47,077 bases of DNA from contig JAJPKS010000124.1 in assembly GCA_021323605.1 (NCBI GenBank), positions 1 to 47,077 of the forward strand. Reading direction: 5' to 3'. The notes under the pieces were generated by a model. That model was not told the DNA's origin, did no database searches, and saw nothing but the letters and a program-made list of their open reading frames with translations. A program made the position numbers and the translations under genes. The stretch comes from Bacillota bacterium (lineage in GTDB: Bacteria; Chloroflexota; Dormibacteria; Dormibacterales; Dormibacteraceae). Shown piece by piece: positions 2,217 through 5,437 of the stretch; the first letter of the stretch is position 1, and each line of letters begins with the position of its first letter.

Positions 2217-3392
2217 TCACGAGCTGGGGCCCGCGACCGGCCTCGAGGGATGACCGTTCCGGAGCCCGAAGTAGGTGCCGCCCGGCTCGAAGACCACCAG
2301 ACGGTCGAGACCCGGGATGCGCCTCCGGCCGACGACGTAGGAGCCCAGGACGCGCAGGTCCGGGGTGAAGACCTCGAAGGGATCGACCCCCCGCTCGGCC
2401 AGCAGCCGGATCACCTCCAGGGCATCGGTGACCGAGGCCCGGGAGCGGGGCCAGTGGCCCCAGAGCTTCCCGCCGCCGGCGTCGACGGGCCCTCGCAGCT
2501 CCGTATAGGCCGCAAGCCAGGCCTTGAGCTTGACCACCACGCCCCTGTCCAGAAAGGCGACCATCCGCCCGATCCGCTCCGCTTCCGCCGGCGTGGCCTC
2601 TTCGGGCGCCGGCAGCGCCATGACCGGCTGCCCCTCCATCAGGACCGGCAGGTTGTGGCGCATGAGCTGGGTGCCGGCGTCGCAGGCCCCCAGCGAGAAG
2701 GGGCACAACCGGCACTGGTCACCGGGCTTGGGCTCCCACTCGCGGTCGGCGGCGATGATCGGCGCCCAGGCCTCCAGCTCCTCACGGAAGACCTCCAGAT
2801 CCTCGAGATCGTAGGTGACGTCGGAGATCACGCCGTGCCGGAGCGCCACCAGGCGGAACTCGAAGCTCTCGACCTCGGGCTCCAGCTCGGAGACCCCGAG
2901 GCAGGCGAAGAGCCCCTGGTGTGATTCGTCCGGGTCCGGCCCCTGGCCCTCTTCGTACGCCGCCCGGTGCCGGCGAAGTCGGATCCCCTTCCAGCCGGTC
3001 TTCCAGTCCCAGATCCGAGCCACCGCGCCGTCGATGATGACGAGGTCGGGGATCGTCATCGCCACCACCTGGAGCGGCCCCTCGGGCGTCTCCAGGTCCC
3101 AGCGCCAGGTGATGGGCTCCTCGACCCACATCACCCGTCCCCCGTGCTCCAGGGCGATCAACGCCTCACGAGCGGCCCGGTCGACGAGGAGCTGGAGGTG
3201 TCGCGGGACGACCAGCTTCTCTCCGTCGCTGATCAGCCTGGCGACCGCCCGGTGGACGAGCGCCCCCTCTTCGGCCGCGTGCCCGGCCGCCACCTTGAGG
3301 TGATCGATCCGCTCCAGCTTCCAGCGGCGGGGGCAACGCTGGTAGCTGGAGAGAGCCGAGTAGGAGAGGCGCAGGCGGCCCGGGTCGGCCAT
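2217..3392 (-). CDS. PD-(D/E)XK superfamily (RecB/Cas4/AddB-like) nuclease with probable Fe-S cysteine cluster
   Basis: LSYSALSSYQRCPRRWKLERIDHL N-terminus; PDLVIIDGAVARIWDWKTGWKG nuclease core; C-terminal CRLCPFSLGAC plus the N-terminal Cys. Start overlaps the ERF stop. Confidence 0.85.
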   Translation of the reverse strand: MADPGRLRLSYSALSSYQRCPRRWKLERIDHLKVAAGHAAEEGALVHRAVARLISDGEKLVVPRHLQLLVDRAAREALIALEHGGRVMWVEEPITWRWDLETPEGPLQVVAMTIPDLVIIDGAVARIWDWKTGWKGIRLRRHRAAYEEGQGPDPDESHQGLFACLGVSELEPEVESFEFRLVALRHGVISDVTYDLEDLEVFREELEAWAPIIAADREWEPKPGDQCRLCPFSLGACDAGTQLMRHNLPVLMEGQPVMALPAPEEATPAEAERIGRMVAFLDRGVVVKLKAWLAAYTELRGPVDAGGGKLWGHWPRSRASVTDALEVIRLLAERGVDPFEVFTPDLRVLGSYVVGRRRIPGLDRLVVFEPGGTYFGLRNGHPSRPVAGPSS

Positions 3393-4372
3393 CAGGCGGC
3401 GGTGGAGGCCAGCACCTTGGCCATGGCCTCGCGCGCGGCCGCGACGTGGGCGCAGCCCTCACCGCAAACCCTCTCATGGGCTGCGACCAGCTCCCGCCCG
3501 ACGGCGCCGTAGGGATCGGCGTCCCCCCCGTCCCGGTGGTGCTTCACCCGTTGGTGGACCTTGGCCGGCCACCACGTCTCCCCCTTGCCCTTGGGCAGGT
3601 CCACGGCGAGACGGTCCAGCACCGCGAGCGCGCCCATCTGCTGGGCCTCGGTCAGGGCGGTCCGGCTCGGAGCCGCCGTCTCGGCCGAGGGAGGTACCCC
3701 ATCGGAACCCGTCTCGATGGGGATCCCCGAGGGTTCCGGTCCGGCCTGCTCGCGGGCTCGCCTCTCGGCCGCCCGGGCCCTCTGGGCGGCCCTGGTCGCG
3801 GCGAGGGCCTCGGCCGCCGCCCCGGGGACGCCGTCGGCCGAAGCTCCCCGGAGCGCGGCCCGGGGCTCCCCCCTGGGGTTCCCCATCGGAACCCGTTCCG
3901 ATGGGGTCCCCTCCTCGTCGCCGACCAGGGCGCCGTCCGGGTCCTCCCGGTCGCTGATCTTGAACAGCTTCATCAGCGCGTACTTCTCGGCGCTGGTGCC
4001 CGCCTTCTGGGTGGCCTTGTCCTGGTTATCCAGCGCCTCCCCGGGCCACTCGATGGTGAAGCGATCGTCCGGTCGATCGGCGTTGATCACGGTCAGGGTC
4101 AGGTCGCCGGTGACCCGGTGGGCCACCTTGCCGCCCTCCCTGGGCACCGCCTCGCGGCCGGCGACGCGCATCGAAGGGATGATCGTGACCCCGTGCTTGA
4201 CCAACAGGGTTCGGAGCCGTCCCATGATCTGGGCGTGCTCGATGAACTCGTAACCGCCCATCCGGGGATCGGCCTGTCCGGTCTTCTCGATCGCGCCCAG
4301 CTCCTGGGTGATGGCCAGGATGCGCTGGTAGATGTTGGGGGAGGGAGCGACTCCCTCTGGCTTGCCTGCCAC
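3392..4372 (-). CDS. ERF-family single-strand annealing recombinase
   Basis: IYQRILAITQELGAIEKTGQADPRMGGYEFIEHAQIMGRLRTLLVKHGVTIIPS...DNQDKATQKAGTSAEKYALMKLFKISDREDPDG is a typical ERF domain. GTG start preceded by AGGAGG. Confidence 0.88.
   Translation of the reverse strand: MAGKPEGVAPSPNIYQRILAITQELGAIEKTGQADPRMGGYEFIEHAQIMGRLRTLLVKHGVTIIPSMRVAGREAVPREGGKVAHRVTGDLTLTVINADRPDDRFTIEWPGEALDNQDKATQKAGTSAEKYALMKLFKISDREDPDGALVGDEEGTPSERVPMGNPRGEPRAALRGASADGVPGAAAEALAATRAAQRARAAERRAREQAGPEPSGIPIETGSDGVPPSAETAAPSRTALTEAQQMGALAVLDRLAVDLPKGKGETWWPAKVHQRVKHHRDGGDADPYGAVGRELVAAHERVCGEGCAHVAAAREAMAKVLASTAA
3697..3722. repeat. Palindromic repeat copy A inside the ERF gene
   Basis: CCCCATCGGAACCCGTCTCGATGGGG; imperfect inverted repeat, near-identical to copy B. 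Confidence 0.75.
3881..3906. repeat. Palindromic repeat copy B inside the ERF gene
   Basis: CCCCATCGGAA-CCCG-TTCCGATGGGG; perfect 11-bp inverted repeat with 4-nt loop. Confidence 0.8.
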
Positions 4373-4392
4373 TGCAATCCTCCTGGTTCGAT

Positions 4393-4485
4393 TCGAGTCA
4401 CCCCAGAATTCGAGTCATTCCGAAATCTGATCGATTAGATTTGATATTGACTCGATTGAACTAGAAATTATATCCATTTGACTCG
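4393..4485. promoter_or_regulatory. AT-rich operator/promoter region upstream of ERF with four TCGAGTCA/TGACTCG(A) sites
   Basis: TCGAGTCA at 4393-4400 and 4410-4417, TGACTCGA at 4448-4455, TGACTCG at 4479-4485. Minus-strand TATAAT at 4467-4472. Strikingly AT-rich in a GC-rich window. Confidence 0.6.
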
Positions 4486-4914
4486 CTTCAAATAGGTGGC
4501 CGGGCGTCCGACCACGTATTCCTCCACGGGTTTGCCCATCTCCCGGGCCCGGTCGCGCGTCCAGCCGGAGTCCTGGGGGGAGCCATCGGGCACCAGGATG
4601 CGGACCAGGCGGTCGCAGTCCCGGGCGATCCTCAGGCCGCGCTCCCGGTACGCCGAACCGCCGTGGCCCTGCGGCGGGTGCCCGACCACGGGGATACCGC
4701 GGCGGCGAGCACGTACCGTCGCCAGCCGTTCCACGCCAGGGGATCCGCCCGAGATCACGAGCTCCGGTCGGTACTCGTCCAGCAGGCGCTCGATCAACCG
4801 GACCACGATCTCGAGGTGCCAGGGAGCCACGTACCGGCCCTGGCTGCCGACGATGGCCAGCCTCACCCCGGCCCTGTTCTGTGCCCCGGCCGGAAACCGG
4901 GAGGGCCCGGTCAC
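4468..4914 (-). CDS. SLOG/DprA-like Rossmann-fold protein (start uncertain)
   Basis: VRLAIVGSQGRY...LVISGGSPGVERLATVRARRRGIPVVGHPP...SAYRERGLRIARDCDRLVRI pattern. Upstream part of the 302-aa ORF is low-complexity and overlaps ssb, so a later GTG start (4914 or 4866) is preferred. Confidence 0.7.
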   Translation of the reverse strand: MTGPSRFPAGAQNRAGVRLAIVGSQGRYVAPWHLEIVVRLIERLLDEYRPELVISGGSPGVERLATVRARRRGIPVVGHPPQGHGGSAYRERGLRIARDCDRLVRILVPDGSPQDSGWTRDRAREMGKPVEEYVVGRPATYLKRVKWI

Positions 4915-4989
4915 CTCTCCGTCTCCCGGCCGGGGTCCGCCCGCCACCGGGCGTGGCCCGGCGAGCCGGGATCGCGCCACCCCCTCCGA

Positions 4990-5021
4990 CCGCCAGCCCG
5001 GCTCCGGAGCCGGGCTGGCGG
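4990..5021. repeat. Perfect 32-bp palindrome between ssb and the SLOG gene
   Basis: CCGCCAGCCCGGCTCC-GGAGCCGGGCTGGCGG, 16-bp arms with no spacer. Confidence 0.85.
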
Positions 5022-5035
5022 TGTCGACGGCACCA

Positions 5036-5437
5036 TCAGAATCCAACCTCCGCGTGGGAACCGGCGCTTCCGGCACGGTCCTCCTCGCCCGAGCGCCCGG
5101 TCCGAGGGCGCGCCTTCGACCCGCCCAGGAACTCGACGCGAGTCGCGACGACCTCGACCGCTGTTCGCCGCTGCCCGTCCCGCGTCTCCCAGGTGCGGGG
5201 CCGTAGCCTGCCTTCGATGCCCACCCGCTGCCCCCTGGCCAGGTGCTGGCCAACCGACTCGGCCTGGTCGCCGAAGACGACGATGCGATGCCAGTCCGTG
5301 ACCTCCTGCCATTCGCCGTTCTGGTCCCGCCGACGCCGGCGGGTGGCGAGGCTGAGTCGGGCCACCGGCCGGCCACCGGCCGTATACCTCAGGTCGGGGT
5401 CCGCCCCCAGTCGACCGATCAGGACGACCACGTTCAC
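5036..5437 (-). CDS. ssb: Single-stranded DNA-binding protein
   Basis: MNVVVLIGRLGADPDLRYTAGGRPVARLSLATRRR...DWHRIVVFGDQAESVGQHLARGQRVGIEGRLRPRTWETRDGQRRTAVEVVATRVEFLG is a canonical OB-fold SSB. Confidence 0.93.
   Translation of the reverse strand: MNVVVLIGRLGADPDLRYTAGGRPVARLSLATRRRRRDQNGEWQEVTDWHRIVVFGDQAESVGQHLARGQRVGIEGRLRPRTWETRDGQRRTAVEVVATRVEFLGGSKARPRTGRSGEEDRAGSAGSHAEVGF

Follow-up and report, generated by a model that had tools for sequence, protein, structure and literature searches.

Why should a gene for a single-strand annealing protein carry the same palindromic stretch of DNA twice, each copy being read in a different frame? The question is raised by the ERF gene within the 47,077-nucleotide stretch that was analysed here as a whole (the window), which is contig C394 of the 4.35-Mb MAG G000 (494 contigs, 88.8% complete). 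The copies may matter to the ERF protein, the DNA may be a site that is selected in place, or both copies may have arrived as parts of something mobile.

Two palindromes in one gene

Comparison of the two copies (Table 1) documented that the pattern CCCCATCGGAAC-CC-GTTCCGATGGGG is matched exactly by the core of copy B and with two mismatches by the core of copy A, while no third copy was found in the window and shuffled windows yielded no match with up to three mismatches. The peptides encoded are IPIETGSDGVP and TPSERVPMGNP, which derive from different phases of one ORF, and coordinates, shuffles and translations hence agree with the earlier note, which had described a palindromic repeat occurring twice in two frames. 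A conserved ERF protein motif was considered and rejected, as the copies are in different frames and are found in unrelated genes, too. The copies had been placed behind the ERF domain, and with the domain comprising residues 14-158 both are indeed located beyond it. Copy B, GGGGTTCCCC...GGGGTCCCC, whose outer edges were placed by likeness to other copies of the family, possesses the core CCCCATCGGAACCCGTTCCGATGGGG, whose 12-bp arms are perfectly inverted around a centre of 2 nt, and thus is slightly better than the perfect 11-bp hairpin previously claimed. When folded as single-stranded DNA, copy B reaches -17.3 kcal/mol (z -5.3) and copy A -10.1 kcal/mol (z -2.4). The period between the direct repeats that flank copy A renders this insertion in-frame. 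No clear direct repeat was found to flank copy B, so only its membership of the family described below identifies it as an insertion. Since no ERF homologue near enough for an empty-site comparison was found, insertion into the ERF gene is concluded from the direct repeat of copy A together with family membership.

Table 1. Positions of the ERF gene, the two palindromes and the direct repeats flanking copy A, as numbered in the window.
Feature	Positions	Strand	Support
ERF single-strand annealing protein gene, both palindromes behind its ERF domain	3392..4372	-	Pfam PF04404 E 7e-13; PHROG 155 E 7e-27
Palindromic element copy A, 35 bp between flanking repeats; core 3697-3722	3692..3726	.	model R1 46.1 bits
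Copy A left direct repeat CCGAGGG, putative target duplication	3685..3691	+	
Copy A right direct repeat CCGAGGG	3727..3733	+	period 42 bp
Palindromic element copy B; core 3881-3906	3875..3911	.	model R1 58.9 bits

A dispersed family of palindromic insertions

Copies A and B belong to a dispersed palindromic family in a small group of uncultured bacteria, which are probably actinobacteria. A search of the whole genome, as proposed earlier, identified 21 matches to the palindrome with up to three mismatches in G000 as compared to none for the reversed pattern. A covariance model (R1), built on 20 copies, gave 57 matches in G000, 135 in G001, the single congener compared, and 10 in G061 (Centralia_MAG_137, labelled Actinobacteria), with both strands counted. 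As a palindrome is matched on both strands, the number of sites is about half of this, which amounts to at least 24 distinct sites in G000, about 65 in G001 and 5 in G061. Across the class, two of 110 genomes, G000 and G001, were matched by R1 at E<=1e-4, with no strong match in the other 108, and two further genomes of the taxonomic family gave one marginal match each (E about 0.01). The copies of G001 are mostly one 34-bp palindrome, GGGGTCCCCACGAAGCCTGCTTCGTGGGGTCCCC, amplified within a larger repeat, and this set is thus for the most part a single insertion copied many times rather than many insertions. The larger repeat (L159-L174) comprises several hundred bases and occurs in dozens of copies carrying the palindrome; these copies often lie at the end of a contig, and some adjoin TnpB sequence.

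The idea of a widespread family was rejected: the bare core occurs often in Oscillospiraceae MAGs from rabbit gut and sporadically in other places, and among the matches listed Centralia_MAG_137 is the only one to have the GGGGnnCCCC form around the core as well as the composites described below, so that the other core matches, which are without GGGGnnCCCC surroundings, were taken as unrelated hairpins. Carriage by viruses was likewise rejected, with viral contigs yielding one match without shared flanks. A different palindrome, CCCCATCGGGC-nnn-GCCCGATGGGG, is present in high copy number in several of the rabbit-gut Oscillospiraceae MAGs (L029-L133). It has a fixed flank of its own (AAAGGAGGAGCGAACC...GCGCCTGAGGGC) and apparently represents an unrelated REP-like or element family.

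The copies of the family are insertions. Direct repeats of at least 6 bp, with lengths of 6-8 bp, flank 8 of 18 sites (1.6 expected from shuffled flanks), and the summed repeat length over these 18 sites is 96 as compared to 71.9 +/- 4.1, a sum not reached once when flanks were swapped between the sites in 50,000 trials; at about half of the tested sites, copy B included, a clear flanking repeat is missing. Excision from repeat to repeat rejoins broken genes in both G000 and G001. Two of these encode an IS701-like DDE_5 transposase (C222) and an IS256 transposase; the others are the N-terminal part of a TnpB, an IS21-like transposase, identified as such by eye, and a gene of C389 that resembles a transposase gene. 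Pfam matches span the excision junction in the DDE_5, IS256 and TnpB cases, and none was obtained for the rejoined IS21-like protein or for that of C389. A natural empty site was identified in G001, where L201 possesses a single AAGCAGG and L159 carries AAGCAGGA on either side of the palindrome. In the chromosomal N-acetylmuramoyl-L-alanine amidase gene of G000, the palindrome adds 14 residues in-frame, directly ahead of what appears to be a membrane segment, and this insert is missing from ten homologues, that of the congener among them. The in-frame periods are 42 for the amidase, as for ERF copy A, and 39 for the TnpB N-terminus, while other insertions shift the frame. Among the other host ORFs, Pfam and NCBIfam revealed little beyond IS607, IS256, DUF347 and a Phd antitoxin. 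The mobile palindrome that the earlier note had envisaged is thus supported by the dispersal of the copies, by direct repeats at their flanks, by frames that excision restores, by a natural empty site and by restriction to few lineages. Homologues that conserve both peptides through synonymous changes breaking the palindrome, or a palindrome with neither further copies nor polymorphism between lineages, had been named beforehand as speaking against mobility, and neither was observed.

Element form, nesting and mode of spread

A single unit comprises 30-37 bp, with 30-35 bp lying between the flanking repeats, and is an inverted repeat over its whole length, with GGGGnnCCCC-stem-GGGGnnCCCC as the usual form. 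Bases of the inner stem vary in pairs (AAC/GTT, AGC/GCT, ACC/GGT, AAT/ATT), and the dyad is preserved via such compensated changes. The covariation score of 0.182 exceeds that of shuffled copies (0.109 +/- 0.013; reached by 0 of 500 shuffles), with slid registers all falling far below, a result that is to be read as supportive and not as a probability, since the copies are related and the structure was derived from these same copies. Compensated changes that keep the dyad would also be expected from palindromes serving as sites for binding, nicking, recombination or termination, selected in place, for instance for the ERF protein or the exonuclease; the stability of the hairpins and the presence of two copies in one recombination gene fit this idea, too. 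Selection in place is nevertheless very improbable, given that copies are found in genes unrelated to one another and disrupt the frames of several transposases, that the amidase copy is missing from homologous genes and that the family is limited to very few genomes.

The larger copies of the family are one element nested in another. All 11 composites examined contain a complete inner element, GGGGCACCCCATCGGAGC..GCTCCGATGGGGACCCC, and in 9 of the 11, once this inner element and two bases more are taken out, what remains joins cleanly into an outer unit that is palindrome-like and belongs to the family as well. On either side of the whole C389 composite lies CTCCTCG, and these two repeats are 73 bp apart. 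As the inner copies are without a clear duplication, recombination between elements may account for nesting besides transposition of one element into another.

Considering the insertions as such, the family probably represents a very small, non-autonomous, MITE-like palindromic element which is moved in trans by an enzyme cutting its target with a stagger, an enzyme suggested by the 6-8 bp duplications beside inverted GGGGnnCCCC ends. Such an enzyme would recognise the inverted ends, cut the target with a stagger of up to about 8 bp and insert the element in the manner of a DDE transposase acting on a MITE, whereby a direct repeat of 6-8 bp would be left at the target. The main weaknesses of this transposition model are the varying length of the duplication, the absence of a clear repeat at about half of the sites and the small size of the element; with 30-37 bp it is below the described size of MITEs, and the synapsis of two ends is therefore not obvious. 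Many copies were spread inside transposons and not by movement of their own. An autonomous element with the ends of the family was found neither by a half-site scan (up to one mismatch) nor by a search for long-range inverted repeats nor in the loci inspected, the genome G000 being incomplete and fragmented. Y1 transposases (PF01797) gave no match in G000 and G061 and 11 matches in G001, whereby the missing match in G000 is no proof of absence with the MAG being 88.8% complete.

The chief rival to transposition is insertion without a transposase, in which hairpin fragments were captured during the repair of staggered breaks or by template switching, and copies arose via recombination between palindromes and hitch-hiking on transposons. 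The varying length of the direct repeats and their absence at many sites would be accounted for in this way, as would the merged look of the composites, the one repeat that carries most of the G001 copies and the finding that neither an autonomous partner nor a Y1 enzyme was identified in G000. However, repeats of 6-8 bp recur in unrelated genes and at a consistent place beside the GGGGnnCCCC ends, and the spread of a single, sequence-defined family points to recognition as a dedicated step. Insertion without a transposase is considered unlikely.

Transposition in trans, as preferred here, allows for a comparison with known elements. Rickettsia RPEs, to which the earlier note had likened the palindrome, are palindromic elements of 105-146 bp that occur in-frame within protein genes as well as at other genomic places (PMC2229807, PMC10969869); they were reported in Wolbachia as well, and their target duplication is listed as unknown. 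This likeness holds for behaviour, as the family is palindromic and found in-frame in protein genes (ERF copy A, the amidase and the TnpB N-terminus), but not for membership: its units of 30-37 bp (composites about 73 bp), its 6-8 bp repeats, the different phylum and the fact that some insertions break genes set it apart. Bacterial MITEs comprise 70-300 bp (PMC3733652) and often have a known insertion-sequence partner, and one of them, RUP, likewise tends to land in insertion sequences (PMC2229807). With MITEs such as RUP, Correia/NEMIS and YPAL the family shares inverted ends, the lack of a gene and a target duplication, yet it has about half their minimum size and a partner insertion sequence was not found. 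The size of 30-37 bp thus excludes formal membership of the RPEs as well as of the classical MITEs. REP/REPIN sequences form hairpins of 20-40 bp that are scattered over bacterial genomes (PMC3733652), and the family is likewise short, dispersed and hairpin-forming; unlike these it has GGGGnnCCCC ends instead of a GTAG/CGTC tag, is often intragenic and is flanked by direct repeats. The missing tag, together with the finding of no RAYT in G000, argues against REP. The yeast mitochondrial GC42 elements are dispersed GC-rich palindromes of 42 nt with a constrained stem and merging clusters, for which AG or ACT is the putative target duplication (PMC4478555). A dispersed GC-rich palindrome, a kept stem, a putative duplication and merging are found in the family, too, whereas GC42 is mitochondrial and its AG or ACT contrasts with 6-8 bp; the likeness is one of form, with no relation in sequence claimed. 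Taken by the way it works, the family is best called MITE-like. A tentative further proposal, which we regard as possible though doubtful, is that it constitutes a class of target-duplicating elements of its own, the smallest in bacteria, with about 34 bp in which two inverted ends directly adjoin each other, moved in trans, seeding short in-frame peptides and nesting in itself.

The ERF gene as host of the insertions

Phages and one plasmid yielded distant homologues of the ERF protein, which share about 28-33% identity with it over the domain, and a search of 100 relatives revealed none except one weak match. Judged from these comparisons, the gene was probably acquired by the lineage of the window; viral contigs contained no ERF homologue. 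The gene adjoins that of a PD-(D/E)XK exonuclease, and a phage-like exonuclease/ERF/SLOG module (2217-5376) is flanked by chromosomal genes, namely TilS at 548-1840 and MazG, Mfd and YbeY from 7662 on. The absence of ERF from relatives suggests this module to be an acquired island. Between the SLOG-like and the ERF gene, an AT-rich stretch of about 95 bp (4393-4486) contains (T)TGACTCG(A) four times, twice in each orientation, which looks like a putative operator cluster. We infer that the palindromes entered the ERF gene after its arrival in a genome already carrying the family. The inserts are probably tolerated, as they reside behind the annealing domain, copy A adds a multiple of three bases and the frame is open for both.

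The mobile-element reading accounts for the repeat read in two frames, and a function of the ERF protein need not be invoked for it. If it is right, a palindrome of 30-37 bp inserts with a duplication of 6-8 bp at about half the lower size of MITEs, and the minimal substrate of a transposase would become a testable question. Judged against the size ranges of the cited reviews, the family would rank among the smallest mobile DNA elements described in bacteria. It would be to bacteria what the GC clusters are to mitochondria, and in behaviour a smaller cousin of the RPEs, and it would reveal a further way in which working proteins gain short peptides.
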